A stretch of 37,535 nt of DNA from contig CAKULN010000028.1 in the NCBI GenBank assembly GCA_934667175.1, positions 1 to 37,535 of the forward strand, read 5' to 3'. The position numbers were made by a program, and so were the translations under genes. How positions within the stretch are numbered: the first letter of the stretch is position 1; each line of letters opens with the position of its first letter. The notes beneath the pieces are model-generated. The model was not told the DNA's origin. It saw nothing but the letters and a program-made list of their open reading frames with translations, and did not search any database. Below are positions 1 to 37,535 of the stretch, one piece after another. Source of the DNA: an uncultured Bacteroidales bacterium. Its GTDB lineage: Bacteria; Bacteroidota; Bacteroidia; Bacteroidales; UBA932.

Positions 1-2
1 CA

Positions 3-44
3 GAGGTCACCGAGTTGCTTGACATCATCTCGGCTAACTGCTAA
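3..44 (+). CDS. C-terminal end of an unidentified gene cut by the window edge
   Basis: Reading from base 3, the plus strand is open for 13 codons (EVTELLDIISANC) and stops at TAA (42-44). The residue mix looks like a normal protein tail, but there is far too little to name a family. The inverted-repeat structure just downstream makes the end of a transposase one possibility; that is inference only. Confidence 0.3.
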   Translation, partial: EVTELLDIISANC

Positions 45-217
45 AATGGGTGTCCCTTTGCGGAAAACAGGACAAGTGAGATAAACGTTTCCCAAGAGTG
101 TGGGATGCACTTTTGAGGAGCGAAAAAGGTCGAAAGTGTTACCTAAGGGATTAGGCCAAGCCTAAAGTGCATAATCCCGTAAAATTTTACCTATCTCAAA
201 GAAAGGGGACATAGACA
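45..217. other. Intergenic stretch with inverted-repeat structure
   Basis: No gene is seen here. TGTCC (52-56) and GGACA, about 13 bp further on, form a small hairpin. A looser inverted pair joins GTGTCCCTTTG near 50-60 to the CAAAGAAAGGGGACA segment near 197-212. This could be the terminal region of an insertion sequence belonging to the gene that ends at 44, or a terminator shared with the converging fecR-like gene. Neither can be decided from this sequence. Confidence 0.3.
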
Positions 218-1237
218 TTAACGAGTTGGTTGGCTTTCAATCCGGATATCTGTGCCAAGGGCGGAGTTGACAAGGGAAAGGATGTCGGGGAGGGAGGCTG
301 TGGAGAATTCTCCGCTTAGGCGGCGGGATTCCGGGTCCGACACTTCAAGAGTCACACCGTAATATTCAGAGAGTTCGGAGAGGACTTCCGGCAGCGGGGT
401 GTTGTCGTAGATGAACTCGCCGGTGGCCCATGCGGCGGGGTTGGGATGTTTCGGGGTGAGCCGCACCGGAGCGGTGGAGCCTTGCCGCAGGACGGCAGAC
501 TGGCCTTTTGTCAGGGCCAGACCTTCTTCGCCGGACCGGGCGACCGAGAACAGGACTTTGCCGGAGACGACGCTCACGCTGATGGAGTCAATTCCTTGGT
601 CACTGAGTTTGCCGAAGTGACGGTATGATGAATTTCTGGCATGCTTCGGCGCTTCGACAAGCTCAGCGACCGAAGTGGGGTCGGAGACCAATGTAGGCTC
701 AGAGACCGAGGCGGCATGGGCGTCAACCTGAAAGCGGGTGCCGAGAACTTTGACGAAACCGGAGCCGGCGTCTATGCGGAAAGGAGCGCGGTCATCGTGT
801 CGGACGCTAAAGTAGATTTTGCCGGTCATCCGGACCAAACGGTTATCCTTGTGGCGTTGGAGGCGGAGGGTCGCTCCAGGGGCCAAGGTCACGGACGAGG
901 AGTCTGGAAGAGTGAATGTCTGGGCGACATCGTAGGCCGTGTAGTCCGTCCACGAGGTTTGCCACGATGTGTAGAGGAATATGCCGACCAAGGCTGCGGC
1001 GGCGATGCCGGCGACACTGGCAAGCAGATGTTTAAGCGACGGATTCCGGTCACTGAACTTGCCGAAGTGACGATGTGATGATTTTTCGGCATGCTTCGGC
1101 GCTTCGACAGGCTCAGCGACCGAAATGGAATCTGCGACCGAGCGGAGAGCTTTGTCAGGGTCAAAGCGGTTCTCTTCGTAGGATTTGGCCACGAAGTCTA
1201 TCATTCTGTCTTCCTTGTTCTTCATAACAATCATCAT
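218..1237 (-). CDS. FecR-like anti-sigma factor with two in-frame repeat insertions
   Basis: This is a 339-residue inner-membrane anti-sigma factor of the FecR/DUF4974 type, expected to hold the ECF sigma factor of the same operon and to read the N-terminal STN domain of the receptor. A short N-terminal cytoplasmic part (about 1-69) is followed by one membrane span (about 70-90), a periplasmic FecR domain (about 100-262, with FTLPDSSSVTLAPGATLRL) and a C-terminal DUF4974-like domain (about 273-335). Two segments, residues about 38-65 (VAEPVEAPKHAEKSSHRHFG) and 178-214 (VAELVEAPKHARNSSYRHFG), are translations of two near-identical 76-bp DNA repeats and are foreign to the family. The first sits just before the membrane span and the second inside the FecR domain. 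The start ATG follows the TAA of the preceding gene directly, so translation is probably coupled. Unusually, it is the last gene of the operon rather than lying next to the sigma gene. Confidence 0.85.
   Translation of the reverse strand: MMIVMKNKEDRMIDFVAKSYEENRFDPDKALRSVADSISVAEPVEAPKHAEKSSHRHFGKFSDRNPSLKHLLASVAGIAAAALVGIFLYTSWQTSWTDYTAYDVAQTFTLPDSSSVTLAPGATLRLQRHKDNRLVRMTGKIYFSVRHDDRAPFRIDAGSGFVKVLGTRFQVDAHAASVSEPTLVSDPTSVAELVEAPKHARNSSYRHFGKLSDQGIDSISVSVVSGKVLFSVARSGEEGLALTKGQSAVLRQGSTAPVRLTPKHPNPAAWATGEFIYDNTPLPEVLSELSEYYGVTLEVSDPESRRLSGEFSTASLPDILSLVNSALGTDIRIESQPTR
598..673. repeat. 76-bp paired hairpin module inside fecR, copy 1
   Basis: One arm, GGTCACTGAGTTTGCCGAAG, and an opposite arm, CGCTTCGACAAGCTCAGCG, flank a central spacer, giving a BIME-like pair of hairpins. 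It is read in frame by the FecR gene as residues around 185-212. It is about 89% identical (8 differences in 76 by hand alignment) to the copy at 1048-1123. Confidence 0.85.
1048..1123. repeat. 76-bp paired hairpin module inside fecR, copy 2
   Basis: Same arrangement and length as the module at 598-673, also read in frame by the FecR gene, here as the segment just before its membrane span. The arms GGTCACTGAACTTGCCGAAG and CGCTTCGACAGGCTCAGCG are each imperfect palindromes. Confidence 0.85.
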
Positions 1238-1939
1238 TTATACGGGCGCTTCGACAGGCTCAGCGACCGAGCCGTCCGGTTGGTGAGCTTGCCGAACCAC
1301 GGTTGGTGAGCTCTGCCGAACCATTCCTTTACCGGAGACGCATTTGAATGAATATGTCACCTCTCCCCTCAACACAGAATCAGAGGCATAGTCAAAAACC
1401 GCGGTCTCCGCCTTGAATATCAGACGGCCGTTGTCCTCAAATGAATATTCCGCATTCCTCAGGTAGCAAACCTCCTCCTGGCGTCCGTTGACATTATCGT
1501 AGTCGATGAAAGAGTTATAAGGGAAAGACACAATATTACCGTCCTCGTCAAGTTCAATCTCTCCACCGACCGGAAAAGTCCTCCAGTTCATCATCTGGTA
1601 TGACCTGCCGGCACGATAGTCAATGTCCTCAACAAGGCAGCATGACCAGTTAACCTTAACCTTATAACGCTCCTGTCCATCCATGTCGACAGTCAATCTG
1701 GAATACTCATCGTAGCGGTAAGGATACGCCGCGAACAGTTCCTTGGCAAAGTCCGCATACGCCATCCCGTCACCGTCAAGGTCGACAGGTCCAAGGCTCC
1801 AGCCAATGGATTCAAGGACATATTCACCGACAATCCGGTCCATCGTGGCTGTGGCCGCGTCGGTCATCCAATAATCGATCTTTTCCTGACAGGAGCAAAG
1901 TAGCAGGAGACCTGCGAGGATATATTCAATTCTTTTCAT
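1238..1939 (-). CDS. Small hypothetical lipoprotein with a repeat-derived C-terminal tail
   Basis: I do not recognise the family. From the chosen start the protein has 233 residues, with a lipoprotein signal (MKRIEYILAGLLLLCSC), so it is probably lipid-anchored in the envelope. The ATG at 1939 is preferred over the one at 1954 because it follows the TGA of the DUF4249 gene by a single base, suggesting coupled translation. The body is acidic and rich in beta-type segments, with pairs such as DLDGDG and ELDEDG. The final 25 or so residues (VRQSSPT, VRQAHQP, VAEPVEAP) are pure repeat DNA, so the native stop has apparently been replaced by read-through into repeats. Its place between the DUF4249 gene and fecR suggests an accessory role in the same uptake system. 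Confidence 0.75.
   Translation of the reverse strand: MKRIEYILAGLLLLCSCQEKIDYWMTDAATATMDRIVGEYVLESIGWSLGPVDLDGDGMAYADFAKELFAAYPYRYDEYSRLTVDMDGQERYKVKVNWSCCLVEDIDYRAGRSYQMMNWRTFPVGGEIELDEDGNIVSFPYNSFIDYDNVNGRQEEVCYLRNAEYSFEDNGRLIFKAETAVFDYASDSVLRGEVTYSFKCVSGKGMVRQSSPTVVRQAHQPDGSVAEPVEAPV
1247..1324. repeat. Repeat cluster forming the 3' end of the small lipoprotein gene
   Basis: A CGCTTCGACAGGCTCAGCG-type unit (1247-1270) is followed by two GGTTGGTGAGC-type units (1278-1300 and 1301-1324). Together they encode the last 25 or so residues of the upstream gene, in the minus-strand frame, as MVRQSSPT, VVRQAHQP and VAEPVEAP. Confidence 0.85.
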
Positions 1940-1940
1940 A

Positions 1941-2849
1941 TCAGTCGATTTCATGGTCAGTGGATGTCATCAGGGAGACGAAGCCTATGCCGTCGCCGGT
2001 CACATTGGTAGGGTAAGGCTTGCCAGGAAAGAAAGCCAATGCGGAAAGATCCGTTTCCTCGAACCAGGCGGCATTGATGTAGTTGTAGGTCTTGCGGTCG
2101 AGAGCCAGAAGACGCACCGCCACCTTTGCCGGAAGACTTCTGTTCAAAGAGACCTTGAACACGTGAATACCGCCCTCAAAACCCTTATCTGTAAATATGT
2201 TGTACTTGTTGGCAAAATAATTGACCGGGGAAGGATCCTCACTGTCATAGTTAAGATTCATACCAGTGTTCAGAAAGGGTTCGCTGGAATTGTCAATGTC
2301 CAGCAAACGGGAGTAAGAGCCACCGAAGTCCCAGACCTGAAGCATATAGTAGTTTTTCTCGTCCGGCTTGTCTTTAACACGTACGCCCATTCCCAATGCT
2401 TTATACGAATTGCCGCTTTTGTTCTTCTTATAAATGTGAATGGTGTCCACACCGGCAAGAACAGGAGCCTCCAAGGCCACGGTCGTCGCCTCTGCCCTCA
2501 TCCCTTCAGACTCCACGACAATCCTGACCTCATCTCCGGCCTTGAAATCAGCCCTGAATCTGAACACGTTATGGTACAATAAACCATCAGCCTGCTCAAC
2601 ATTGTCCGAGGCCGCCGCCAACTCACCGTTGATCCAACATTCAAGATGCCCGGACTTCAATTCTTCCGCCTTTTCATGAGTGCTGACACCGACACAGACC
2701 GTGTGCGACGTGTTGCCCGTAGACATCAAGGCATTGACCAGCAGCATTCTTTCAGGACCTGGCAGATCCACGGGAATATATTCCTCACAAGAGAAAAAAG
2801 CCATCAAGGCAACAAGGAAAAGTATGAATATCTTCGTTCGCATATTCAT
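1941..2849 (-). CDS. DUF4249 domain-containing lipoprotein
   Basis: This 302-residue protein has a lipoprotein signal peptide (MRTKIFILFLVALMAFFSC, Cys as lipid-anchor residue) and the DUF4249 body, seen in EEYIPVDLPGPERMLLVNAL, CWINGE and later TNVTGDGIGFVS near the C terminus. DUF4249 proteins are regularly encoded directly after a TonB-dependent receptor in Bacteroidota and are thought to be its partner at the outer membrane, by analogy with SusD; substrate unknown. The start overlaps the receptor stop (TAATG), indicating translational coupling. A second ATG two codons in (2843) is equally possible. Unlike its neighbours, it carries no copy of the hairpin repeat. Confidence 0.9.
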   Translation of the reverse strand: MNMRTKIFILFLVALMAFFSCEEYIPVDLPGPERMLLVNALMSTGNTSHTVCVGVSTHEKAEELKSGHLECWINGELAAASDNVEQADGLLYHNVFRFRADFKAGDEVRIVVESEGMRAEATTVALEAPVLAGVDTIHIYKKNKSGNSYKALGMGVRVKDKPDEKNYYMLQVWDFGGSYSRLLDIDNSSEPFLNTGMNLNYDSEDPSPVNYFANKYNIFTDKGFEGGIHVFKVSLNRSLPAKVAVRLLALDRKTYNYINAAWFEETDLSALAFFPGKPYPTNVTGDGIGFVSLMTSTDHEID

Positions 2850-5758
2850 TAGAACTTAAAAGTGTAACTGAACGACGGCAGGAACGTGAGGAAGGAGCGC
2901 TTCGAGATCGCTGGCTTCCACTCCCCCTCCTTCTCGTAGGCATCATAGACGCACCAGGAAGGGTTCTGCGCGCAGTAGAGGTTGTATATTCCGAAATTCC
3001 AGATCCGCTCTCCGTGGCGCTTTTGCCTCCGGAAGTTGACGCTGACATCCAAATGGTGCGTCGGAGGCAGACGGTAATTGTTGCGCCCGCTGACATAGTC
3101 AACAGCCACGTCATCGCCGGAAGGGGTGATGAACGCCGAGCCTCTGGACGGGATGGTCATGCAGTTTCCGCTGAGGAACGCCCAAGACGCTGTGAGATCG
3201 ATCCGAGAGTTGAATTTATGATTCACAGTTGCGTTGATGACGTGTCTCCGGTCGAACTGCGCAGGAAACCAACGACCGTCGTTGATACTGCCGTCACGAA
3301 ATATTCTCTCCGCTTTGGAAAGCGTGTAAGCCAAGGTGCCGGTGGTCTTGCCGACTACTTTGCGGGCGAAGAGTTCCAGTCCGTAGGCACGCCCCTCCCC
3401 CATCGAGACGTTGTCCTCCCAATTGACTGAAGACGAGAAGGCGAGGCGGCCATCCTTATATTCAAGGACATTCTCAGTTCTCTTGCAGTAGCCTTCAAGA
3501 GAGAACTCCCAGCCTTTCAGGCCGATGTAATACGCTCCGGCGGAGACGAGGTCAGATGTAACGGGGCGGATCTCGGCGGTGATCGGCACCCAAAGGTCGG
3601 TCGGGATGTCCAAAGTCCCGGAGGTCAACTGATGGACGTACTGGGACATTCTTGAATATGCCGCCTTCATCGACCAGTCATCACTGATGTCGAATTTCGC
3701 CGAGACTCTCGGCTCCGGGCAGAAATAGAAGCGGCCTCTCACACTGAAAAGGCTGAGGTGAAGGCCCGGATTCACAGTCAAGCGGTTGCCGACGGAGATG
3801 TCGTCCTCCACATAAAGGGACATCTCATTGCCGTTCACCCGTCGGCTGGCCGCGTCACTGTATGTCGTGTCGGCGAAGACACGATTGTCGTTCAGTTCCT
3901 TGATTCTGGATTTAGTGATTTCCGGACGATAACCGTGACGGACATATTCTCCGCCGAACTTGATCAAATGGTTGGTTGAAGGAGTGTAATCGAAATCAGC
4001 CTTGAGACCGGCGTCAATGATTCCGGAAGAGTAGTCGCTGACGCTCTGGAAAGAAGTCTCACCAAGCTCGGACTTCTCCAGATTCTCTGCGACCGAATGT
4101 ATTCCCATCCTGTAGAGGTTGCCGTAAGCCGTGAAATCAGCGAACAGTTTGTTACTGAATATATAAGTCCATCTTGCGGACAGGACATTGTTGCCCCAGC
4201 TCAGGTTAAGATTCGAGCCGTCCTCGGTCAGCATAGTGTAAGGTTCATAGTCCGGGCCGTAGAACCGCTTGCTGGACTTGGATTTGTCCTCGTACCGGAA
4301 ATAGTCCCGTCCGCTGTAGAGTCCGATCCAGCCACGGCTCCGGTCGGAGAATTTGTGCGAGACCTTGGCGTTGACATCGTAGAAGGCATAGTTCAGCGGG
4401 CTGCCCGCCCATTTGATGACGCGGTCGAAAAGGAAAGTGTGCATTCCTCTGGCGCTCAGCGAGAAAGTCGTGTTCTCGTTCATCAGCGGGCCTTCCAGAT
4501 GGAATTTCTCAGCAAGGAAACCGGCGGTGACGCTTCCGGAAAGTTTCTTGGAGTTGCCGTCATTGGTACGCACGTCTACCACGCTGGAAACCCTTCCGCC
4601 GTATCGCGCCGGAAACGAGCCTTTGTAGACAGTGACTTTCTTGACGGCCTCGGGAGTAAAAACGGACAACAGTCCGAAAAGATGGCTGACATTGTAAAGC
4701 GAAGTTCCGTCCAGCAGCATCAGATTCTCGTCTGCACCGCCTCCACGGACGTATATTCCCGAGAATCCTTCGTTTCCGCCTTGCACTCCAGGCATCATCT
4801 GGAGGGTTTTCAAGACATCTTTCTCGCCCAGGACGACCGGAGTGTTGTCGATGAGTTCATTAGGGACTTCAATCGCCCCCATATATGTGGAACGGATTCC
4901 GGCATCCTTGCGGGCGGTTATCCGAGCCTCCTTGAGTTCGGCGGATGGCGCCAAGGCGACATTGATCGTCAAATCCTTTCTCAGAGAGATTCTCTTTGTC
5001 TTGGCGGCGCAGCCTATGTAGGAATATGTCAGCTCGACCTCGCCCTCCGGCAGTGTCAAAGAGTAGAAGCCGAAGTTGTTGGTGGATGCGCCGGTCGCTG
5101 AGCGGATTTCCCCGGTCGCTGAGCCTGTCGAAGCGGCCGTGACTCCACTCACTTCGGCATGCTCAGTGACCGAAACCGTGACCCCAGCCCCGATCAGCGT
5201 CTCCCCCGTAGCCTCGTCCGTAACATAGCCACAAACCGCAAAACGTTTCCTGCCAGGAACGTCACGTGTCAGAACCACATAGCCGCCACGAACCTTCCAC
5301 TTGATTTCCATGCCTTCCAGAAGCATGTCCAAGGCCTTTTCAAGCGACAATCCCTCAACAGACGTTCCTTCATAGTTCTTTTCCAGAAGTTTTTCAAGTT
5401 CCGAATCATAGACTAACCGTACTCCATATCGTTCTCTGATCACGTCCAATTCCTCACGGACCGTCCGTTGCAACAACATGATTTCAGCCGGTTGGTGAGC
5501 TTGCCGAACCATGGTTGGTGAGCTACGTCGAACCACCGGTTGGTGAGCTTGCCGAACCATGGTTGGTGAGCTACGTCGAACCACCGATTGGTGAGCCTGT
5601 CGAACCACTGGTTGGTGAGCCTGTCGAACCACTGGTTGGTGAGCCTGTCGAACCACCGGTTGGTGAGCCTGTCGAACCACCAGTTCCGCCCCCTCCACCC
5701 ATGTCAAAGGCACTGCGGCGAGAAAACACGCCAATAACAAATTCAATCGCATAGTCAT
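2849..5758 (-). CDS. STN-type TonB-dependent outer-membrane receptor with N-terminal VRQAHQP repeat array
   Basis: This 969-residue transducing receptor would import an unknown ligand and signal to the FecR/sigma pair. It has a signal peptide (about 1-24), a repeat array (about 27-90), an STN secretin/TonB short N-terminal domain (about 93-165), a carboxypeptidase-regulatory-like domain (about 173-262), a plug with MPGVQGGNEGFSGIYVRGGG, and a 22-strand-type barrel to the C-terminal FLPSFSYTFKF. The array lies exactly between the signal peptide and STN. It is made of eight 23-25 bp hairpin units translated as VVRQAHQP or VVRRSSPTM. A second, 60-bp paired module (5114-5173) is inserted in the regulatory-like domain as SVTEHAEVSGVTAASTGSAT. 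Both leave the frame intact. No SusD-like gene follows; a DUF4249 partner does. Start ATG at 5758 or 5752. Confidence 0.9.
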   Translation of the reverse strand: MTMRLNLLLACFLAAVPLTWVEGAELVVRQAHQPVVRQAHQPVVRQAHQPVVRQAHQSVVRRSSPTMVRQAHQPVVRRSSPTMVRQAHQPAEIMLLQRTVREELDVIRERYGVRLVYDSELEKLLEKNYEGTSVEGLSLEKALDMLLEGMEIKWKVRGGYVVLTRDVPGRKRFAVCGYVTDEATGETLIGAGVTVSVTEHAEVSGVTAASTGSATGEIRSATGASTNNFGFYSLTLPEGEVELTYSYIGCAAKTKRISLRKDLTINVALAPSAELKEARITARKDAGIRSTYMGAIEVPNELIDNTPVVLGEKDVLKTLQMMPGVQGGNEGFSGIYVRGGGADENLMLLDGTSLYNVSHLFGLLSVFTPEAVKKVTVYKGSFPARYGGRVSSVVDVRTNDGNSKKLSGSVTAGFLAEKFHLEGPLMNENTTFSLSARGMHTFLFDRVIKWAGSPLNYAFYDVNAKVSHKFSDRSRGWIGLYSGRDYFRYEDKSKSSKRFYGPDYEPYTMLTEDGSNLNLSWGNNVLSARWTYIFSNKLFADFTAYGNLYRMGIHSVAENLEKSELGETSFQSVSDYSSGIIDAGLKADFDYTPSTNHLIKFGGEYVRHGYRPEITKSRIKELNDNRVFADTTYSDAASRRVNGNEMSLYVEDDISVGNRLTVNPGLHLSLFSVRGRFYFCPEPRVSAKFDISDDWSMKAAYSRMSQYVHQLTSGTLDIPTDLWVPITAEIRPVTSDLVSAGAYYIGLKGWEFSLEGYCKRTENVLEYKDGRLAFSSSVNWEDNVSMGEGRAYGLELFARKVVGKTTGTLAYTLSKAERIFRDGSINDGRWFPAQFDRRHVINATVNHKFNSRIDLTASWAFLSGNCMTIPSRGSAFITPSGDDVAVDYVSGRNNYRLPPTHHLDVSVNFRRQKRHGERIWNFGIYNLYCAQNPSWCVYDAYEKEGEWKPAISKRSFLTFLPSFSYTFKF
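5114..5173. repeat. 60-bp paired hairpin module inside the receptor gene
   Basis: GGTCGCTGAGCCTGTCGAAG and CACTTCGGCATGCTCAGTG flank a 14-16 bp centre. This is the reverse orientation of the fecR modules with a shorter centre; 60 bp equals 20 codons, so the frame is preserved. A partial repeat of the first arm (CCGGTCGCTGAG) lies directly next to it. Confidence 0.8.
5490..5681. repeat. Tandem array of eight GGTTGGTGAGCYTGYCGAACC units in coding sequence
   Basis: Eight head-to-tail units of 23, 25, 23, 25, 24, 24, 24 and 24 bp total 192 bp, or 64 codons. The 23- and 25-bp forms alternate, so each pair adds 48 bp and keeps the frame. On the minus strand it encodes the VRQAHQP/VRRSSPTM stretch right after the receptor signal peptide. 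Confidence 0.9.
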
Positions 5759-5779
5759 CGTACATTACTTGGACATCGG

Positions 5780-5803
5780 CGCTTCGGCAAGCTCAGCGAC
5801 CGA
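5780..5803. repeat. Single CGCTTCGGCAAGCTCAGCG hairpin unit
   Basis: One unit of the hairpin family in the gap between the sigma-factor gene and the receptor gene. The flanks CGCT and AGCG pair around the TCGGCAAGCTC loop. Confidence 0.75.
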
Positions 5804-5823
5804 GACATACCATGCACTTCGAT

Positions 5824-5894
5824 GGTTGGTGAGCCTGTCGAACCATGGTTGGTGAGCCTGTCGAACCATGGTTGGTGAGCTACGTCGAACCACC
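5824..5894. repeat. Three tandem GGTTGGTGAGC units between sigma and receptor genes
   Basis: Three units of about 23-25 bp lie in the 222-bp sigma-receptor gap, upstream of the receptor start on the minus strand. They would be transcribed as part of the operon mRNA and could fold as small hairpins, influencing relative expression of the regulator and the receptor. That role is inference. Confidence 0.8.
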
Positions 5895-5980
5895 CCGACA
5901 TCCATAATAATGACGCAGTGGATCTAAAAAGTACCATCTTTTTTCGGGAATATTTTCAAAAAATTCGCAAATCACCTCAG

Positions 5981-6511
5981 CTACAGCGACATCAAGAACA
6001 AGATGACCTTCTTGACACCCTGACGGATAGCCTCCAACGCCCTGCTGACCTGATTGCGGACGGTGTTCTCCGAGAGCCCGAGAGCGCCGGCGATCTCGCT
6101 GTACTTCATCCCGTCCCTGCGGCTCATCAGGAATATTCTCCGTCTTTTGGCCGGAAGGCGGTCGATAGCAGACCAGATCCGCGCCTCACGAAGCGAATTG
6201 TCCACAGCCTCCTCGTCAGAAATCACCACATCATCCTCAACCGGAAGTGTTTCCTCCTCAATACGGTCCAGTTCCACGTCCTGACGCCGCCGTCTTATGG
6301 CATCAACGCACCGGTTCCTCACTGCCGCATAGAGATAAGCTCTTGGACTATCAATCCCGCCATCGTTCGTCTGTTTCATCCAATATGCCATGAAAGTCTC
6401 CTGCACAAGATCCTCGATCAGATCCTTATCTCTGAGATAGTGCAACGCATAGACACACAAAGGCCTGTAGTAAAGCCTGAACAAAGACTCTATGCCATTT
6501 GCCTGCACCAT
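5981..6511 (-). CDS. ECF-family RNA polymerase sigma-70 factor
   Basis: This 176-residue extracytoplasmic-function sigma factor presumably directs transcription of the receptor operon when released by the FecR protein. Region 2 includes IESLFRLYYRPLCVYALHYL, DLVQETFMAYW and SPRAYLYAAVRNRCVDAIRR (about 8-78). Region 4 is a helix-turn-helix, about 115-168, with RLPAKRRRIFLMSRRDGMKY and GLSENTVRNQVSRALEAIRQ. The length is typical for Bacteroidota ECF factors. It is the first gene of the operon. A consensus promoter lies so close to the ATG that the mRNA should have almost no leader. The stop is followed by 222 bp of repeat-bearing spacer before the receptor gene. Confidence 0.92.
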   Translation of the reverse strand: MVQANGIESLFRLYYRPLCVYALHYLRDKDLIEDLVQETFMAYWMKQTNDGGIDSPRAYLYAAVRNRCVDAIRRRRQDVELDRIEEETLPVEDDVVISDEEAVDNSLREARIWSAIDRLPAKRRRIFLMSRRDGMKYSEIAGALGLSENTVRNQVSRALEAIRQGVKKVILFLMSL

Positions 6512-12803: not shown

Positions 12804-13649
12804 TTAGTATTTGATATATCTGTCACTTAATGGATTATGATAATAATCCCTAAATATGGACGATGCGATGATTATACAATATTTTCGGATGATGTAGAGT
12901 ATTATGCCGGGATCCCAAGGAAGACCAGGAGCGGAGATGCTATGCTCTCTGGCGAATTCCTTAATGATGTCATCTGAATGGGAATAATCATTCTTCATCT
13001 TTCGCTTCCATTGTTTATCTTTGATGTTCAGGACTGAACCCGCCGTATCGCAATACGTGTAAACAGCACCGGGGACAGTAACAACTCTGTCTGCGTAATA
13101 GAGGGCAGTGAAAGAAAAATAACGGTCTTCTATGAAGCGCCCGACTTCAAACCTGAGATTATGCTCAACCAGAAATGACCGTTTGAATATATAACGCCAT
13201 ACAAATCCCCACTTGACCACCCAAGTAACAGACAACTTTTCTCTCGTGGATGTGTACACTTTAATTTTATGGAATATTTGACTCTTGTAAGCCTTTCTCT
13301 CACTGAGTATCCCACAGCATGCGATATCCGCTCCGGTTTCAAACAACGCTACGGCCATATTGGCGTAAAAGTCCTCATTAACCTTGTCATCCACATCCAT
13401 GAAATGGACATAGTCGCCTGTCGCAGCGTCAAATCCGACATTCCTTGCCATCGATATGCCTTGGTTTTTCTCCAAAACTATCACTTTCACGGGATACCGC
13501 CTTGCTATTGAAGCGGAATTGTCAATGTCGCCGTCAATCACCACAATGATTTCCAATTTAATTTTATATTTCTGTCCCAATAGGTTCTCAAGACAATTCG
13601 CAATATGTCGCTCACCTTTGTAACAAGGTATTATTACAGATATGGTCAT
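12804..13649 (-). CDS. Family 2 glycosyltransferase
   Basis: A 281-residue GT-A-fold glycosyltransferase, expected to move a sugar from a nucleotide donor to a cell-surface polysaccharide or lipid carrier. Visible are the N-terminal nucleotide-binding strand (MTISVIIPCYKGERHIANCL), the IVVIDGDIDNSA segment (about 33-45), NQGISMARNVGFDAATGDYV (about 61-80) and the metal-binding DXD-type motif DVDD (about 84-87). The acceptor side carries FIEDRYF (about 170-176), like the ED motif of this group. The C terminus is short and basic with aromatic residues and no clear membrane helix. It stands alone, with no sugar-nucleotide or flippase genes nearby, so its target cannot be inferred. Base composition is more AT-rich than the housekeeping genes to its left. 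Confidence 0.9.
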   Translation of the reverse strand: MTISVIIPCYKGERHIANCLENLLGQKYKIKLEIIVVIDGDIDNSASIARRYPVKVIVLEKNQGISMARNVGFDAATGDYVHFMDVDDKVNEDFYANMAVALFETGADIACCGILSERKAYKSQIFHKIKVYTSTREKLSVTWVVKWGFVWRYIFKRSFLVEHNLRFEVGRFIEDRYFSFTALYYADRVVTVPGAVYTYCDTAGSVLNIKDKQWKRKMKNDYSHSDDIIKEFAREHSISAPGLPWDPGIILYIIRKYCIIIASSIFRDYYHNPLSDRYIKY

Positions 13650-20971: not shown

Positions 20972-20979
20972 TATCTTTG
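20972..20979 (+). promoter_or_regulatory. -7 box of the AsmA-family gene
   Basis: TATCTTTG matches the Bacteroides -7 consensus and ends 6 bp before the first usable ATG (20986). No clear TTTG is seen 19-20 bp upstream. The 230 bp between the array and this box show nothing else. Confidence 0.55.
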
Positions 20980-20985
20980 CGTTCT

Positions 20986-23900: not shown

Positions 23901-24567
23901 AAAAGGGCGGCTCGACTGCGAGATCGCGGCGACAAGCTCTATCGACACGTCCATGAACATCGTGCTTCCATCCTTGAACGGTATTGTCAAGATAGACGGA
24001 AAAAATCTATCCCTGTCCGAGAGCGAAGATCTGAATAAGTTACGCAGGACACTGATGTTCAAAGACAAGGACTCAAGCAATATCGAATCGCTCTCAATCC
24101 GAGGCATCATCAAGGACAACCAATTGGAGATATTCCCTTTCCTGCTGAAGATCGATCGCTATTCGATTGCGGCCAGCGGTCTCCAGAATTTTGACCAGAG
24201 GTTCAAATACCACTTATCCGCCTTGAAATCCCCTATCCCGTTCAAATTCGGCGTGAATCTGAACGGAACATTTGACGATTGGCGGTGGAAACTCGGCAAG
24301 ACCAAGTACAGGAGTCGCAGCATCCCACTGTTCGACGAGCAGGTCAACAGTCTGAAGTTCAACCTCACAACCGCCATCCACAACATATTCGAGAAAGGTG
24401 TGGAGCAGGCCATCAAACAGACCGAACAGTCCCAAGAGGCAATCGAACAGAGAAAAAAGGCTCTCGAATATTCCTCCGCTCTGACCGGGGACCTTTCCGA
24501 GGAGGAGAAGAAAACCATCGATGCCCTCGAGAAAGTCACAACCAGCGCCAACAATGCCGGGCAATAA
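20986..24567 (+). CDS. AsmA-family inner-membrane-anchored protein
   Basis: A 1193-residue protein of the AsmA/TamB/YhdP superfamily, whose members form long hydrophobic beta-grooves across the periplasm and are implicated in phospholipid transport to, or homeostasis of, the outer membrane. One N-terminal membrane helix (WLRPVLWVLLGIWAVVVIVL) is followed by the typical AsmA opening (DITFSGIKASMFRSFPNLKV) and a long beta-rich body. The conserved AsmA C-terminal region is seen around KSGVSDITAKGRLSGL and in the final third (FNLTTAIHNIFEKGVEQAIK). A coiled, charged tail follows (QEAIEQRKKALEY). The start could be ATG 20986 (almost leaderless from the adjacent -7 box) or the ATG at 21007, which gives the more usual short basic N terminus (MGKRAWRW). 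It stands alone in the window. Confidence 0.88.
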   Translation: MENGVKVMGKRAWRWLRPVLWVLLGIWAVVVIVLQVALNTKVLTRIVDKVADEYVDGDITFSGIKASMFRSFPNLKVTIDNFSITYPHDRFTKFDSLEVSGSHLLKAGRGETEDTLAHFRKLSVSVNYLAAATGRIRIRKASLEHPRIFAHQYDSTRANWNIFGDGSAKEDGDTTASTLPPISIGKVSLEGRPFVVYTNPADTIFGCIFLKSLTAKGHYDARKGKIENVSVTLDSLFAAGRMPSDTVAFGLESLDIKERSGHFDVNMTSRLFLGLKSSGRMSIPVEIRGDIFPELDKKVVSVERMKARIATVGLDASGKADFSGKNIHLKAEAGIDKASVSDVAEFFGKNFPFLTKLSTDALLTVDASCDGYYDKSSGSLPPLSVRVQVPDSRIGWEGIDGKGRFDLDITAKSHEGRLTAEVPDFCFSVNGMKVTLSGTAEDLLGNDPRFDINSGLHFVLDSLATYLPDSLGISLHGDLEGHVEGGFRLSQLDLFNFSGIGLEGRLESNGIKVSVPKDSLIAYIGHTDISLGEFNHDEDGQAAHTKREHRHCGLSITIDSLFSEYGSSTFIRGTDLRLSAHNAEEKMDGDPSRHPVHGHLDIASIGMRDMDSCFVGALRSANTFKLTQNLIGRQIVPFLSLSSDNNRITIRDDADRFSVRDARLAVEAHPNSVERQSRRKHILDSLQRVYPGVRRDSLFRKAFRRYRSGVALPDFLSEKDFEKSDIKIQLGESISKYIKDWDITGSIDVAEGLVITPSYPLDNRITGFSGKFSNNVIELKELSLKSGVSDITAKGRLSGLKRLLTSGKGRLDLDLRITSNEVDANEILLALNAGKKFEAPRHNTYLSGLDDDDYLNTIKESAAADTTITTSLIVLPANLNAKISLQANKIRYSNLETSRAASDLVLKERCLQATNTVATTNMGDVYLEGFYSTRTKKDLKAGFDLTLSGITTEKVIQLFPAVDSIAPMIKALKGRLDCEIAATSSIDTSMNIVLPSLNGIVKIDGKNLSLSESEDLNKLRRTLMFKDKDSSNIESLSIRGIIKDNQLEIFPFLLKIDRYSIAASGLQNFDQRFKYHLSALKSPIPFKFGVNLNGTFDDWRWKLGKTKYRSRSIPLFDEQVNSLKFNLTTAIHNIFEKGVEQAIKQTEQSQEAIEQRKKALEYSSALTGDLSEEEKKTIDALEKVTTSANNAGQ

Positions 24568-24856: not shown

Positions 24857-24889
24857 AAGGGGACAGCTTCATCAGAGGCTGCCCTTTTT
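24857..24889 (+). terminator. Terminator of tRNA-Leu
   Basis: AAGGGGACAGC pairs with GGCTGCCCTT (one bulge), followed by five T, directly after the tRNA. Confidence 0.8.
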
Positions 24890-25504: not shown

Positions 25505-25543
25505 CCGCACAAGGGGACAGCCTCGTTTGAGGCTGTCCTTTTT
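25505..25543 (+). terminator. Orphan terminator copied from the tRNA-Leu flank
   Basis: CCGCACAAGGGGACAGC (25505-25521) is identical to the tRNA 3' end plus flank at 24851-24867. The perfect stem GGACAGCCTC / GAGGCTGTCC and T-run follow, as after the tRNA, and similarity goes on with AAATCAAAGAC and CCTGTT. No tRNA body precedes it, so this is a leftover of a duplicated or deleted tRNA locus, or an attachment-site scar. Confidence 0.65.
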
Positions 25544-25690
25544 CTATTGCCCACGGAGGGCCCAACCCATAAAATCAAAGACGAGGTGCCTGTTGATTAT
25601 CATTTTCAGATTACCAAGAACCAATTCCGGCATTCATCATTCCGAGGAGACAAAATCCAGATATAACGCATATATTATCAAATAAAATTA

Positions 25691-26821: not shown

Positions 26822-27796
26822 ATGCAAAGACAAAAGAACATTAAGGTGCAGATGTTACGGGGAATCGCCATCGTTGCTGTCATCCTGATCCATACTCTTC
26901 CAGCTAAAGGAGACTGGCAATTTATCTGCCGTCCACCAATCAATTTCGCCGTGGCTTTATTCATATTCCTTTCTGGATATTTGACGAAATTCGATAATAA
27001 TGATTGGGGACTTTTTTGCAGGAAAAGGATCATCAGGGTCATCATCCCGTACATAATATGGACAGTCATATACACTCTTCCGCTCACAGATCCCAAACGC
27101 CTGCTATCCTTTCTTGTCTCCACAAAGGCGGCCTCCCAGTTATACTACATCTTTGTCTATATCCAATTTGTTCTTCTGACACCATTGCTTGGCAAACTCG
27201 CGAAATCCAGATACAGATGGGCAGGATGGCTGATAGCACCCATTGCTATCATCTCATACAAATACACGACCATCATCTTAAACATCACCCCGCCTTCGTA
27301 CATATCCACCCTATGGGGGATATCGTGCTTAGGATGGTTCACCTATTACTATTTAGGACTGCTACTCGGCAATGGAGCACTTCATGTCACATCCAATTGG
27401 AAACGGATAACCACTCTGTATGCATTGTCAATTATACTACAAATAGCTGAAGGTTATGTATGGTATCACGTGTTCGACGAGAAAAATTGTGGCACGCAAG
27501 TGAAACTCTCCTGCATCATAACCAGCACAATTTTCCTGCTCATGTCATATTTCTACATATCAGACGACAAGATTCAACTCAAAAGCAAGGCCTTGCTGAC
27601 TTTAGGCGAGTACTCTTTCGGAATATACCTCTCGCATATTCTTGTCATAAGGTTATTTTATCATTTCGCAGCCTGGTACCCAAAGCTACCGTTCCTTATC
27701 AACTCATCAGTTATCATTTTAGCAAGTCTGGCCTTAGTGTATTCGGGTAGATTGATTTGCGGGAAAACCGTAAGCAGATGGATAGGTTTAGAATAG
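26822..27796 (+). CDS. Acyltransferase 3 family membrane protein
   Basis: A 324-residue integral membrane protein of the acyltransferase-3 family, which typically O-acetylates or otherwise acylates surface polysaccharides or small molecules. The N terminus has the usual KNIKVQMLRGIAIVAVILIH, containing the RG-I-AI start and the conserved His at the end of helix 1. About nine to ten hydrophobic helices follow, including FIFLSGYLTKF (about 48), VIIPYIIWTVIYTLPL (about 73), FVYIQFVLLTPLLGKL and the late SFGIYLSHILVIRLF. The length is normal. Codon use is visibly more AT-rich than its neighbours; for example it uses GAGTAC for Glu-Tyr where most genes here use GAATAT. This hints at more recent acquisition. 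Confidence 0.88.
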   Translation: MQRQKNIKVQMLRGIAIVAVILIHTLPAKGDWQFICRPPINFAVALFIFLSGYLTKFDNNDWGLFCRKRIIRVIIPYIIWTVIYTLPLTDPKRLLSFLVSTKAASQLYYIFVYIQFVLLTPLLGKLAKSRYRWAGWLIAPIAIISYKYTTIILNITPPSYISTLWGISCLGWFTYYYLGLLLGNGALHVTSNWKRITTLYALSIILQIAEGYVWYHVFDEKNCGTQVKLSCIITSTIFLLMSYFYISDDKIQLKSKALLTLGEYSFGIYLSHILVIRLFYHFAAWYPKLPFLINSSVIILASLALVYSGRLICGKTVSRWIGLE

Positions 27797-32955: not shown

Positions 32956-35535
32956 CTAACCTCTTCCTGAATCGGAAATAAGGTCGTGCAGATTGCGGTT
33001 GAAGTCGGAGCGGGACAGGAGATCCTCAAGGGTGAGGTGCATCCTCCAGCGCCAATAGTGACGGGAAATGGCCGGGATGTTGATGCGCTCGTCTTCCGGT
33101 TTGCCTTGATAGCGGACCTCTCCGTCTATGGACATCCAGTCCTGAAGCGGGAGGATACACAGCATCGAAGGAGAGTTTAGGTGCTGGTTCACAATCCGTT
33201 CGCAGATCCACGGCTCGCAGAAGTACGGGGCCTGCCCTTCACAATGGAGGATTTCATGATAGAACCTTTCGGACATGGCACGGTCTTCCTCCCACCAACC
33301 ACGCAAGGTAGAGGTGTCATGGGTTCCGGTAGCGCAGACCGAAAGATATGGATAGGTCCACGGCTCGTCAAATGTCTTCTCTGGAGACTTAGGCATCCTC
33401 TGGATCTCAAGCGACAGGATGTGCAGATCCTTCATCACCTCAGGAACACAGGCCGGAATCATGCCGAGATCCTCTCCGCAGGCTAGCATTCCGGTGGAAT
33501 CCAGAAGGGCAGGCAACTTTCTCATGGCGCACTCCTTCCAGAAACCGTTGTGACGATGGTAGAAGAAATCATTGTAGAGATCGTTGTAGGCGTTCTTGAA
33601 GTAATCGTTAAGTGCCCGGAAGTCCTCTGTGTTCTGGGCTGCGATTCTAGGATGATACCATCCGTCACGATGAGGATCCGGGACAAACAACTGAGAGTTA
33701 GGGTCAAATCCCCTGCCTCTCAGTTCATCAGCCGAGTAAGGAAGCGCAGGATTGAAATGGCCAAGCAAGCCCGACTTCACCCCGACCGGAATCTCCCAAA
33801 TGCGGAAGAATCCAAGAATATGATCGATTCGGAAGGTGTCGAAATATTCACTCATCTTCTTCAGACGAGCCTTCCACCAAGCGTAGCCGTCCTTGGCCAT
33901 CTCCTCCCAATTGTAGGTCGGAAAACCCCAGTTCTGACCATCCGCAGAGAAAGCGTCAGGTGGTGCTCCAGCCTGAGAATCAAGGTTAAACAGGTGCGGA
34001 TACTGCCAGGCATCAACGCTCGTTCGGCTGATTCCGATCGGAAGGTCCCCCTTGATCGCCACGCCCTTCGAATGGGCATATTCAACAGTATCTTTCAGCT
34101 GCGAATCAAGGCAGAACTGGACGTAGCAGTAGAAGTCCGTCTCGCTCTTGTGCCTGCGGCAGAATGACTTGACCTTGGTTTCTGAATATTCAGAAAGAGA
34201 CTTCCATTTCCCGAACTCAGGAGTACCGTTGATGTCTCTCAAGACACAAAAAGCGGCATAAGGGATGAGCCAATCTTTGTTGGCGGAATAGAATTTCTTG
34301 TAGCTTTCCCCCGACATCACTTCCTGACCGACTTTCTCGAAAGCCTCTTTCAGAAGGCGGATCTTCTCATTATTAACTCTCTCGTAGTCAACGGCCGGGA
34401 GTGCGTTGAGTTCTTTCTGGAGAGTATTGTATTTCTTGTCGGCCTTGACCCCGGCATCAGGCAGATGGATGAACTGAGGGTGCAGGGCGAACGTCGAGTT
34501 CGCATTGTAAGGGTAAGAATCTGTCCACGTCCCGGTCATCGTGGTGTCGTTTATCGGCAGGAGCTGGATGATGCTCTGGCCTGTCTTTGCGGCCCAATCC
34601 ACCAGTTTTTTGAGGTCTTTGAACTCACCGACTCCGAAACTGGTCTCGCTGCGGAGGGAAAAGACAGGGATCGCGGTGCCTGCCCCGCGCCAAGGCCTAA
34701 TCTCGAACTCCGGAACGGCATCTCTTATCTCCAGCAGACGGCCCTTGGCCGGAACTTCCGCGAAGAAATGGTTGGGGCCGGACTCCCAGACTTTAGGTTT
34801 CTTCGTCTTTGTGTCCAGAATAACGAATTTATACTCAAACGGTTCCTTCACATTAAGGGATACGTTCCAAAGCGGAGCGGCTATAGGCGTCAACGGTACG
34901 GATTTTTTCCAGTCATCGAACATTTTGCCACTACCGGTTATGGCCAGCACCTCATCCTTACGGATACGAGCTCCCGGAACGGTAAAGGTCACATTACCGG
35001 AACGCTTGGGCGAAGCCGACTTCCTTTTGAATATCACATCGGTGAAGGCCTTGGTCCAGAACGGTGAGTCTTCCGGACGGTCCTGCCACCGGTCGCGGAT
35101 TTCAAGAGACTCGGTCGCTGAGCCTGTCGAAGCGACTGAGCTTGCCGAAGCAACTGAGCCTGCCGAAGCGACCAGTGTTTTGATGGTCGCTGAGCTTGTC
35201 GAAGCGTCGGTCCCTTCGACAAGCTCAGGGACCGACGTTTCCACGGTTGGTGAGCCCTGCCGAACCACGGTTGGTGAGCCCTGTCGAACCATGGTTGGTG
35301 AGCCCTGTCGAACCACAGCGACCGTATGCCTTCCCCACTCACGCCGCACACACCGCCCGTCACGGCAAAGTTCAAAGGAATATTCAAGGGCATCCGTCGT
35401 GTCCGGAACTTCCAAAGAAGCCTCCCAGCGCCCTCCGGCGACATATTCCATAGCTATTGATTGACCATCGGAGAGGTTCAGAAAAAGTTCCTCCCCAGGC
35501 GAAGTGAAATATTCAAGGGTAATTTTAAGTCGCAT
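32956..35535 (-). CDS. malQ: 4-alpha-glucanotransferase (GH77) with two N-terminal CBM20-like domains
   Basis: An 859-residue cytoplasmic amylomaltase/disproportionating enzyme that transfers glucan chains in maltodextrin or glycogen use. The start MRLKITLEYFTSPGEELFLN at 35535 begins the first CBM20-like domain (about 1-74). A repeat-encoded linker follows (about 75-145). The second CBM20-like domain spans about 165-265 (AITGSGKMFDDWKKSVPLTP, then PFEYKFVILD). The GH77 catalytic domain has SLRSETSFGVGEFKDLKKLV, GDLPIGISRTSVDAWQYPHL, the nucleophile Asp in FDTFRIDHILGFF, the acid/base Glu in ACGEDLGMIPACVPEV, and ATGTHDTSTLRGWWEED. The linker reads VRQGSPTMVRQGSPTVVRQG, VPELVEGTD and ASTGSATES, all translated hairpin repeats, inserted where relatives have a short loop. 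An ATG at 35607 is rejected because it adds an unrelated lead. Confidence 0.93.
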   Translation of the reverse strand: MRLKITLEYFTSPGEELFLNLSDGQSIAMEYVAGGRWEASLEVPDTTDALEYSFELCRDGRCVRREWGRHTVAVVRQGSPTMVRQGSPTVVRQGSPTVETSVPELVEGTDASTSSATIKTLVASAGSVASASSVASTGSATESLEIRDRWQDRPEDSPFWTKAFTDVIFKRKSASPKRSGNVTFTVPGARIRKDEVLAITGSGKMFDDWKKSVPLTPIAAPLWNVSLNVKEPFEYKFVILDTKTKKPKVWESGPNHFFAEVPAKGRLLEIRDAVPEFEIRPWRGAGTAIPVFSLRSETSFGVGEFKDLKKLVDWAAKTGQSIIQLLPINDTTMTGTWTDSYPYNANSTFALHPQFIHLPDAGVKADKKYNTLQKELNALPAVDYERVNNEKIRLLKEAFEKVGQEVMSGESYKKFYSANKDWLIPYAAFCVLRDINGTPEFGKWKSLSEYSETKVKSFCRRHKSETDFYCYVQFCLDSQLKDTVEYAHSKGVAIKGDLPIGISRTSVDAWQYPHLFNLDSQAGAPPDAFSADGQNWGFPTYNWEEMAKDGYAWWKARLKKMSEYFDTFRIDHILGFFRIWEIPVGVKSGLLGHFNPALPYSADELRGRGFDPNSQLFVPDPHRDGWYHPRIAAQNTEDFRALNDYFKNAYNDLYNDFFYHRHNGFWKECAMRKLPALLDSTGMLACGEDLGMIPACVPEVMKDLHILSLEIQRMPKSPEKTFDEPWTYPYLSVCATGTHDTSTLRGWWEEDRAMSERFYHEILHCEGQAPYFCEPWICERIVNQHLNSPSMLCILPLQDWMSIDGEVRYQGKPEDERINIPAISRHYWRWRMHLTLEDLLSRSDFNRNLHDLISDSGRG
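35112..35316. repeat. Hairpin repeat cluster encoding the malQ linker
   Basis: At least five GGTCGCTGAGCYTGYCGAAGCG-type arms are present, one of them paired as CCCTTCGACAAGCTCAGGG. They are followed by three GGTTGGTGAGCCCTGYCGAACC units. All are read in frame on the minus strand. Confidence 0.85.
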
Positions 35536-35797
35536 ATTGTCTTCATCGGCGGAATTTGTCCGCTCGCAATCTGCAATATTAGCGAAAATATCTGAATTTA
35601 GTAACATGAAAAAAATAAGTTGCTTCAGATTAAGAGAATATTTTCGAGGATAGACCTATTTTCGAAGAAGGAGTGTGCCGGTGGCACATGACTGATGAGA
35701 AAAGAGATATAGACCGAAAAGATTCCTTAAGGTGATGCAGGTTACTTTTTGAAGGTTACTTATTAAATACGGTTTTGAGAACAAACCAAACCGGAAA
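35536..35797. other. Intergenic region between malQ and the U32 gene
   Basis: No gene is seen. A small hairpin TGTGCC/GGCACA lies near 35674-35688, and a short direct repeat (AGGTTACTT twice) near 35738-35762. No clear malQ promoter could be placed. Confidence 0.45.
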
Positions 35798-37148: not shown

Positions 37149-37307
37149 GCAACTTTCGGCAACGTTTTTGGTCGAAAATGCTGCCGTGGAGGGTCCTGAA
37201 GCACCTTTCAGCAGCATTAAAAGGTTTAAATGCTGCCGTAGGTGGTCAAACAGCACCCTTCGGCGACATTAAAAGGATAAAATGCGCTTGTTCAGTGCAA
37301 AGGCGAC
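37149..37307. repeat. 52-bp-period hairpin array, locus B
   Basis: Full 36-nt units lie at 37180-37215 and 37232-37267. Both start GCTGCCGT and carry AGCACC at the same place. A partial unit ends at 37163 and a shortened one runs 37284-37307. All are separated by exactly 16 nt. The 16-nt spacers are nearly identical to each other (ATTAAAAGGTTTAAAT and ATTAAAAGGATAAAAT). Confidence 0.75.
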
Positions 37308-37319
37308 ATGACATGACGG

Positions 37320-37340
37320 CCACCTCGATAGGCTCAGTGG
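37320..37340. repeat. Degenerate single hairpin unit
   Basis: CCAC and GTGG pair around CTCGATAGGCTCA, which matches the loop of the receptor-operon repeat with yet another flank pair. Confidence 0.5.
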
Positions 37341-37399
37341 TCCTAAAAAGTATTTCTAACCGGATTCAAGCACCTTCCCCTCGGCTGGATGACAAAAAT

Positions 37400-37438
37400 A
37401 AAAGCAGGCCTCCATTTAACGGATGGATACCTGCTTTT
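37400..37438 (+). terminator. Hairpin terminator downstream of the U32 gene
   Basis: AAAAGCAGG pairs with CCTGCTTTT, with an inner TCCAT/ATGGA pairing, followed by a pyrimidine-rich tail. The last 97 bases of the window hold nothing recognisable. Confidence 0.65.
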
Positions 37439-37535
37439 CTCTTCAATCGCCATATTATTATGACTTGGACAAAGATACCCTAATCTTATGAATTGTCAAA
37501 ATATTATCAACAAAATCTCTCAAATCTCAAATACC

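Follow-up and report, generated by a model that had tools for sequence, protein, structure and literature searches.

The density of the 6-mer GAATAT (with ATATTC) in the analyzed stretch of DNA, a window of 37,535 nt from an uncultured gut bacterium of the order Bacteroidales, is several-fold above what its proteins and codon habits demand, and relatives within the genus to which Candidatus Cryptobacteroides belongs have genomes dominated by the same word. Preferred codons are displaced by the word, word sites show fewer synonymous differences than expected among close species, and sister lineages use other words (CATATG; GGCCGATG). Our tentative reading is that GAATAT, at its best flanked by T or G on either side, is a 'self' word of its clade that may be kept by molecular drive in DNA uptake or recombination.

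To our knowledge, words of such strength occur in few lineages, mainly Neisseriaceae and Pasteurellaceae, with their uptake sequences, and cyanobacteria, with HIP1, and we know of no earlier dialect system of this kind in Bacteroidota; if true, the present one would be the first. New here are the different words, GGCCGAT(G) and CATATG, in other lineages of the same genus. The genus comprises 400 or more sequenced species; many have one of two mutually exclusive words, one genome has a third, and some species have neither. This provides a natural experiment on the birth, switching and death of words, and on whether words wall off gene exchange. Should the words serve in uptake or recombination, they may also aid the transformation of uncultured gut Bacteroidales.

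Word frequency in the window

The forward strand of the window (1..37535) contains 59 GAATAT and 62 ATATTC matches, 121 in total or approximately 3.2 per kb, and base composition alone predicts about 17 (arithmetic from base frequencies). As 17 pairs of matches overlap as GAATATTC, the number of separate places is 104, in agreement with the first-pass annotation, where the word was described as over-represented, with about 100 separate sites against 15-20 by chance. In a third-order Markov model it is the most enriched 6-mer of the window (121 versus 47.2 expected, z 10.7). A codon-preserving shuffle, which had been named beforehand as a possible refutation, did not reproduce the counts. We performed 500 synonymous shuffles of 22 genes covering 30.9 kb of the window, which gave 26.5 matches on average (sd 4.9, maximum 42) as compared with 101 observed in the genes; the z of 15.3 was the top value among all 6-mers. 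All three codon phases are affected (observed/expected 61/13.7, 16/3.8 and 24/9.0), and GAATAT sites are also present outside the genes of the window.

The displacement of codons is visible in two dipeptides. Glu-Tyr is written GAA TAT in 32 of 37 cases and Ile-Phe is written ATA TTC in 29 of 42, while the products of codon frequencies predict fractions of 0.17 and 0.16, respectively. Thus the earlier wording that these pairs 'nearly always' take the codons of the word suits Glu-Tyr but overstates the case of Ile-Phe. The palindromic 8-mer GAATATTC was reported earlier at about 17 copies with fewer than one expected; the count of 17 holds, with 1.1 expected in a second-order model, but another 8-mer, TGAATATG/CATATTCA, is the strongest of the window (26 versus 1.9 in a model of the same order). 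The palindrome is secondary, and the unit is GAATAT with T or G favoured on either side. The positions of GAATATTC and the word content of individual genes are given in Table 1. The low-GC genes lie close to expectation. One is the AT-rich acyltransferase gene, previously pointed out as an exception, whose sole Glu-Tyr pair is GAG TAC; the other is the glycosyltransferase gene.

Table 1. Positions of the palindromic 8-mer and word content of individual genes in the window
Feature	Coordinates	Strand	Words observed	Words expected	Remarks	Basis
Overlapping word pair GAATATTC	1443..1450	.			starts two bases apart	site list
Other 16 GAATATTC (starts)	6131, 9822, 9832, 14721, 16300, 20209, 21960, 24466, 24979, 26032, 29416, 31592, 31993, 32816, 34184, 35378	.				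site list
Gene	20977..24567	+	13	3.0		own-codon shuffle
TonB-dependent receptor gene	2849..5758	-	8	1.2		codon shuffle
Gene	32956..35607	-	10	2.6		codon shuffle
Acyltransferase gene	26822..27796	+	3	2.2	GC 0.42; excess not clear	codon shuffle
Glycosyltransferase gene	12804..13649	-	2	1.2	GC 0.41; excess not clear	codon shuffle
Ribosomal protein L21 gene	12156..12500	-	0	0	expectation from codons	codon shuffle

Words in related genomes

Genomes with the core GAATAT and T/G flanks are labeled A below, and those with the core GCCGAT are labeled B. The suggestion that the word is chromosome-wide and overrides codon choice is backed by two related whole genomes, G001 and G002, in both of which the word count is far above the control. 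These relatives were also used for the second refutation named beforehand, a normal frequency of the word elsewhere in the genome. In G001 (2.7 Mb) we counted 488 copies of GAATATTC (26 of the reversed control) and, on both strands, 1445 copies of TGAATATG (control 32); its word density is 1.5 per kb in intergenic versus 2.7 per kb in genic DNA. In G048, chosen as A by its GAATATTC count (272, control 11), GAATAT was found just 18 times versus 12.2 expected in 18 kb of CDS. In G205, with 6.4 kb of CDS only, the core was found 10 times versus 7.5 expected and the 8-mer 4 times versus 0.4.

A second word, GGCCGAT(G), is present in other clades of the genus at a density similar to that of GAATAT. 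Nine genomes of the second clade, read over 367 kb of CDS, contain ATCGGCC 588 times versus 121 expected. One genome, G004, has a word of its own at a similar density, the palindrome CATATG (328 versus 78 expected in 182 kb of CDS). Among 400 genomes, the 22 rich in GAATATTC and the 70 rich in GGCCGATG have zero overlap. Some further species of the genus carry neither the GAATAT nor the GGCCGATG word, and no strong word was found in G003, where the best 7-mers were ATAGACC (54 versus 16.7) and GGAAATC (107 versus 48.9). The B genomes have no clear rise in the dipeptides Ala-Asp (1.07x) and Ile-Gly (1.01x).

For the word-bearing clades, the dialects follow the tree of the group. The word groups agree with the branching of a ComEC tree, built with stops inside the matched stretch set to X. 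On a SerRS tree A forms one group and B forms three supported groups, the joining of which the tree leaves unsettled. Two loci without the B label, L008 and L019, sit in B groups on the SerRS tree, and GGCCGATG is raised in the genomes of both (313 versus 132 and 220 versus 89, both strands). L015 and L016 were given the B label by whole-genome counts (879 versus 236 and 454 versus 97); in the codon-shuffle test the B word was outside the top five in the L016 locus and likewise in L015. The literature searched contained no account of such a word in this group of Bacteroidales; the matches listed for GAATATTC were mainly about plant transcription factors, with one about colibactin, and had nothing on the word.

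Conservation and origin of the sites

Four close A genomes have 46 synonymous differences in word codons versus 131.8 expected. Among close A genomes, retention of GAATAT ranks 6 of 871 in a comparison that included all 6-mers and not just permutations of its letters; four of the five 6-mers that outrank it include ATG. TTC codons have the same retention in words as outside them (0.955 and 0.954). In B no site conservation was seen at the available distances, with retention of GCCGAT at 0.295 versus 0.279 in word-less genomes. The word losses among close genomes consist of 12 different single changes and cover all six positions, so that conversion from one precursor cannot account for the word.

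The abundance of the word points the same way. GAATAT exceeds the second-order model 4.5-fold, and the lowest neighbour word is still at 0.53 of its expectation. By calculation, a bias from one precursor would at most approximately double the word and would empty the precursor, while three strong precursors jointly could give 4.6x with all of them emptied. We therefore rejected single-precursor (VSR-like) conversion. Protecting the finished word alone enriches it, by calculation, without emptying its neighbours, as is observed. A mutation or repair bias of this kind, in which the word once made would be shielded from mutation or preferred by mismatch repair, also agrees with the lower divergence of word codons; it would, however, still require a sequence-specific protector, and we regard it as very unlikely. 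Of the repair bias that was among the first options proposed for this DNA, only the protection of the finished word thus remains.

Orientation, spacing and gene classes

As in DNA uptake sequences (DUS), the word has no strand preference; it acts as double-stranded DNA, being distributed in both orientations and all reading frames. The orientation of the clade words relative to genes and to GC skew, respectively, is 292/316 and 153/139 in A and 292/296 and 148/141 in B, as compared with 147/87 for a control word counted alongside; the direction of replication is approximated here by local GC skew only. A signal oriented by replication or transcription was rejected on the absence of orientation bias. 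The gaps between words are near exponential (CV 1.16 and 1.11), which led us to reject regular spacing, and the number of words per kb is somewhat uneven (variance/mean 1.4).

These data also bear on a codon-pair or translation effect. Moderate codon-shuffle excesses of CCGGAA, CGGCAA and similar 6-mers (z up to about 10) are found in many species and would be in line with it. They are outweighed by the involvement of all three codon phases, the equality of strands and the sites outside genes, as well as by the clade-specific identity of the words and by z values of 13 to 46. Codon or codon-pair bias was rejected on the phases and strand equality, and we find such an effect hardly credible.

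In restriction-modification genes the word excess is x1.44 and x0.71, versus x2.67 and x2.24 in core loci. The GC content of these genes is 0.44-0.46, versus 0.52-0.57 in core loci.

Alternative readings: Chi-like, chromosome-organising or methylation-linked words

Known Chi motifs are 5-8 bp long. A Chi-like word would be recognized by a putative AddAB/RecBCD-type helicase-nuclease of each clade, would spare self DNA and start recombination, and would be kept by selection and biased recombination. The words studied here are similarly short (6-8 bp), abundant, clade-specific and, in A and B, non-palindromic; they are weak in restriction-modification genes, and Chi motifs vary between bacterial families (PMC8022716). 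In contrast to Chi sites, no orientation bias was found relative to genes or local GC skew, even though the control word gives one; moreover, the word of G004 is palindromic, and an important word would have been lost or switched between sister species. We thus consider this explanation unlikely. That the word is bound by an abundant chromosome-organising protein, with selection maintaining very many weak sites, is distinctly unlikely in our judgement. Such a protein would fit the even spread over genes of both strands, the double-stranded symmetry and the conservation of sites. However, the gaps lack regular spacing, and sister lineages have replacement words while other members of the genus have none; a function that depends on thousands of sites would pay a high price for such replacement or loss.

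A HIP1-like word, produced by or used with a resident DNA methyltransferase of matching specificity, appears highly improbable. In cyanobacteria HIP1 and alternative HIPs, which are GC-rich palindromes, accompany matching methyltransferases, lie genome-wide inside genes and are swapped for others in some relatives (PMC4390886). Here the words are also genome-wide, and methyltransferases occur in several A genomes. However, of 20 genomes selected for carrying a word, seven, namely three of ten A (G121, G179, G076) and four of ten B (G125, G221, G191, G370), had no above-cut-off match in five Pfam families of DNA methyltransferases (PF01555, PF07669, PF02086, PF00145, PF02384), in assemblies that may be incomplete. 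This disfavours the methylation option raised in the first-pass annotation, and a HIP1-type palindrome with a resident methyltransferase was rejected on this count. The stress laid there on the palindrome and on the HIP1 parallel also has to be dropped, as the core in this clade is a 6-mer flanked by T/G that is not a palindrome, and the words differ in other clades of the genus; the B core GCCGAT is non-palindromic too, and only CATATG of G004 is a palindrome.

Proposed molecular drive of self words

Of the four options named at the outset, uptake-like drive provides the best fit. A putative sequence-reading protein of DNA exchange, either a receptor for DNA uptake or a helicase-nuclease acting in recombination, would favour fragments that carry the word. 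Alleles with the word would then be copied into other cells at a higher rate, and the word would build up by molecular drive resembling that of the DUS of Neisseriaceae and Pasteurellaceae. A shift of reader specificity in a lineage would let a new dialect spread and the old one decay. For the genus as a whole we propose, with equal caution, a methylation-independent self-recognition code in which each clade may write its own 6-8 bp word into the chromosome in thousands of copies, by biased uptake or recombination of DNA; changes of dialect could conceivably partition gene exchange between clades.

The self-word reading draws on the codon override in all phases with equal strand use, on mutually exclusive words whose groups track the ComEC tree, on lowered synonymous divergence with losses at all six positions, and on the weak or absent excess in restriction-modification genes. 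We count against it the palindromic word of G004, the lower intergenic density in G001, the GC gap of restriction-modification genes, the lack of conservation signal in B and the weak excess in G048. ComEC, counted among the points in favour, is present in 30 of 30 genomes searched; these include genomes without the word, and hence it does not discriminate. A further objection is that the core has only 6 bp and recurs every ~350 bp, so that most DNA would have the word by chance or repeatedly in a fragment of one kilobase.

Known DUS are 10-mers or longer. As with DUS, one short word is strongly enriched here genome-wide, genes included, according to the whole-genome counts from relatives. A study of Neisseriaceae gives 5918 copies of kingDUS in 2.4 Mb (PMC3630211), a density similar to that of the present words. 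There, too, a short word is very abundant in genes on either strand, related species have different versions, and their distribution tracks the tree. Unlike the 10-mer DUS, the present core has 6 bp with soft flanks, and the clade words differ more from one another, one being palindromic. In Riemerella columbina, uptake is competed by its own DNA and not by that of R. anatipestifer or E. coli, which suggests a self signal (PMC7965970). This species belongs to Flavobacteriaceae, a different group of Bacteroidota, and the part consulted names no uptake word; its self-preferring uptake within the same phylum was counted in favour of the uptake model.

Over-representation of GAATAT and the unit of the word

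The most over-represented 6-mer of the window (37,535 bp, GC 0.51) is GAATAT/ATATTC, here called word 1, with 59 and 62 occurrences, respectively (121 observed vs 47.2 expected under a third-order Markov model, z 10.7). In a stricter test, synonymous codons were permuted within each of 22 window genes (30.9 kb), retaining the proteins and the per-gene codon usage. These genes contain 101 sites, compared with 26.5±4.9 after shuffling, and none of the 500 shuffles exceeded 42. This test had been named beforehand in the first-pass annotation, whose site counts and reasoning are borne out. The excess is present in every codon phase (4.5x, 4.2x, and 2.7x over codon shuffles), and another 20 sites lie entirely outside the shuffled genes, in 6.7 kb. 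GAA TAT encodes 32 of the 37 Glu-Tyr pairs and ATA TTC encodes 29 of the 42 Ile-Phe pairs, where codon use predicts fractions of 0.17 and 0.16, respectively. The scaled preference strength for Glu-Tyr is about 3.4 in the window, calculated as ln[(32/5)/(0.17/0.83)], and about 1.9 in the related genome G001.

The base 5' of GAATAT is T or G in 78% of the window sites and the base 3' in 76%. Among related genomes rich in word 1 (A genomes), the degree of enrichment over codon shuffles varies with the 5' flank (T 3.2-3.6, G 2.6-3.1, A/C 1.4-1.7) and with the 3' flank (G/T 2.6-3.2, A/C 1.8-2.0), and cores with one mismatch are never enriched above 1.4x. Therefore, the unit is the non-palindromic K-GAATAT-K and not the palindrome GAATATTC; the latter is an overlap of two words, GAATAT and ATATTC, found 17 times in the window.

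Distribution of words within the genus

Among the best 80 relatives of the window's seryl-tRNA synthetase (SerRS) gene, the closest belong to uncultured Bacteroidales, the first being RUG142 (88% identity; locus L001 of genome G001). Since the SerRS tree groups the window with L001 and L002, the window probably belongs to the same genus as G001, whose genome set also includes G347 and G057 with the Candidatus Cryptobacteroides loci L025 and L030. In G001 (2.7 Mb), GAATATTC occurs 488 times (26 for the reversed control), and the count of TGAATATG over both strands is 1445 (control 32); the respective numbers in G002 are 373 (control 38) and 509 (control 18). GAATAT is the top 6-mer in 294 kb of G001 as well (749 vs 303, second-order Markov model). 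The alignments scoring above 500 bits when the window is compared with ten genus genomes (eight A genomes, G003, and G004) show 66-78% nucleotide identity, thus the word has survived much synonymous change.

Elsewhere in the genus, most of the loci from other species lack word 1, and some of these have another word. In the B genomes it is GGCCGAT(G), or word 2: in 367 kb of coding sequence from nine genomes, we counted 588 ATCGGCC (121 expected, z 45.6) and 311 CATCGGCC (51.5 expected, z 41.5). Ala-Asp is written GCC GAT in 370 of 731 cases (0.23 expected) and Ile-Gly is written ATC GGC in 326 of 609 (0.28 expected), and ATA TTC of word 1 falls under expectation for Ile-Phe (17 of 279, or 0.06 vs 0.13). 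The word of G004, sister of the window's group in the SerRS tree (support 88/91), is CATATG (328 vs 78 in 182 kb of coding sequence, z 33.9). CATATG does not occur in the window (10.9 expected by the second-order model or 3.6 by codon shuffle), and it is scarce in G001 (41 vs 123) and G002 (1 vs 20), although enriched in their sister.

In a codon-shuffle panel of ten A, ten B, and ten other genomes, GAATAT exceeds the shuffles in nine A genomes (z 5.2 to 20.7; G048, z 1.9) and ATCGGC in nine B genomes (z 5.2 to 12.9; G205, with 6.4 kb only, z 1.0), and the ten others have z of at most 3.0 for both. Using forward-strand cut-offs set by eye (at least 180 GAATATTC or at least 300 GGCCGATG), 22 of 400 genus genomes are rich in GAATATTC and 70 in GGCCGATG, with an overlap of 0 (3.9 expected if independent), to which base composition contributes. 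The former have at most 124 GGCCGATG and the latter at most 49 GAATATTC. A single change divides A from B in 200 of 200 bootstrap trees of ComEC from 30 genomes; in the SerRS tree, the A genomes form a single group and the B genomes three supported ones, with no resolved node joining these three.

Aligned as TGAATATG and GGCCGATG, the two words agree in K-G-M-M-K-A-T-G, and CATATG has ATATG in common with word 1; either likeness could be coincidence. Weaker candidate words (CGGCAA, 60 vs 22; CATAAA, 31 vs 10; CTCTGC, 36 vs 13; GCCATA, 76 vs 33) were observed in G401 (L005, L261), G327 (L267, L054), L016, and L051/L053, and could represent either additional dialects or effects of codon pairing.

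Conservation, orientation, and gene content

Conservation was assessed in 111 reciprocal-best gene pairs of four close A genomes (median 96% protein identity). Of 1305 comparisons of codons wholly inside the word, 46 show a synonymous difference, while 131.8 are expected from the same codons elsewhere; these are pairs among the four genomes counted in both directions, hence not independent. Word 1 is retained in 822 of 933 comparisons (0.881, vs 0.730 for its letter permutations), ranking 6 of 871 among 6-mers with at least 120 comparisons, and four of the five ranked higher contain ATG. At larger distances, A genomes keep 190 of 563 sites (0.337 vs 0.172 on average), and retention of word 2 in B (0.295) is hardly better than in genomes with neither word (0.279). 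Protein sequences may be slightly bent by the word as well; Glu-Tyr dipeptides stand at 1.34x and 1.25x in A genomes, compared with 1.09x in those having neither word and 0.85x in B, and Ala-Asp and Ile-Gly show no clear rise in B.

The coding strand of G001 contains 334 GAATAT and 333 ATATTC. TGAATAT in A has 292 sense and 316 antisense copies and GGCCGAT in B has 292 and 296, and the G-rich and other strands have 153/139 and 148/141, respectively. An orientation bias would have been detectable, since a control word from these A data shows a skew of 147/87. Given this lack of orientation, the reader of the word should act on double-stranded DNA and not on mRNA. Gaps between sites are near exponential (CV 1.11-1.16), and the density in G001 is 2.7 per kb in genes and 1.5 per kb between genes. 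Restriction-modification genes have a word excess of 1.44-fold in A (33 genes, vs 2.67-fold in 150 genes of core loci) and none in B (0.71-fold in 11 genes, vs 2.24-fold in 132); their GC is also lower than that of core loci.

Possible mechanisms

Conversion bias from one neighbouring sequence would, by calculation, produce at most a 2x excess and an emptied neighbour. The observed excess is 4.5x relative to a second-order model, the lowest neighbour stands at 0.53 of expectation, and losses of word 1 proceed through 12 different single changes that hit all six positions, which also contradicts such a bias. This leaves a process by which the completed word is favoured or protected. Methylation, suggested in the first-pass annotation beside uptake, nucleoid binding, and repair bias, is disfavoured, since three A genomes (G121, G179, G076) and four B genomes (G125, G221, G191, G370), in assemblies that may be incomplete, bear the words with no match over the cut-off in five methyltransferase families (PF01555, PF07669, PF02086, PF00145, PF02384). 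The nearest rival is Chi-like recognition, for which the expected orientation bias is not seen.

We favour a model in which DNA exchange, by uptake or by recombination, would include a sequence-reading step that gives preference to fragments with the word. The word, its dialects, the strand symmetry, the conservation in A, and the occurrence in genomes with no match in the five methyltransferase families are demonstrated. We infer a reader protein, an exchange route, and a drive, which fits better than an essential function because sisters have swapped very many sites and other lineages live without either word. A switch of dialect would cost little, because a new word would build up as a by-product of exchange. 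Against this model, the word is short and dense, that of G004 is palindromic, and we know of no receptor or transformation. In its favour, ComEC is present in 30 of 30 genomes, word-less ones included, and passages of a Riemerella columbina study describe uptake that prefers self DNA, naming no word (PMC7965970). The model resembles the DUS dialects of Neisseriaceae (PMC3630211).

Our literature search, whose scope excluded preprints and most subscription journals, did not turn up any such word described for these bacteria, therefore its novelty in print is not certain.

Other sequence features

In G003 (L003, L139, L140, L296-L300), GTCGAC and GTATAC are absent (67 and 32 expected by codon shuffle), a strong site avoidance of the kind expected from restriction. 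In pooled B loci, CTCGAC and the 6-mers containing GATC are strongly depleted (GATCGC 47 vs 227, CTCGAC 36 vs 224). The imperfect repeats of the window, partly tandem and including GGTTGGTGAGCCTGTCGAACCA and CTTCGACAAGCTCAGCGACCGA, traverse coding genes in frame (peptides such as VVRQAHQP) and explain several enriched 8-mers. The two 47-nt copies look like terminators.

Features of the window
Feature	Position	Remark
Sigma factor, FecR, TonB-dependent receptor, DUF4249 protein gene set	218-6511	
Short imperfect repeat families, 23 to 76 nt	597-1139, 1243-1324, 5113-5173, 5461-5893, 20715-20742, 35112-35316	
Low-GC glycosyltransferase gene	12804-13649	Word 1 close to expected number (codon shuffle)
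tRNA gene	24776-24855	Adjoins 47-nt copies
Two 47-nt copies, 87% alike	24851-24897, 25505-25551	Each copy closes with a T-rich run
Low-GC acyltransferase gene	26822-27796	Word 1 close to expected number (codon shuffle)
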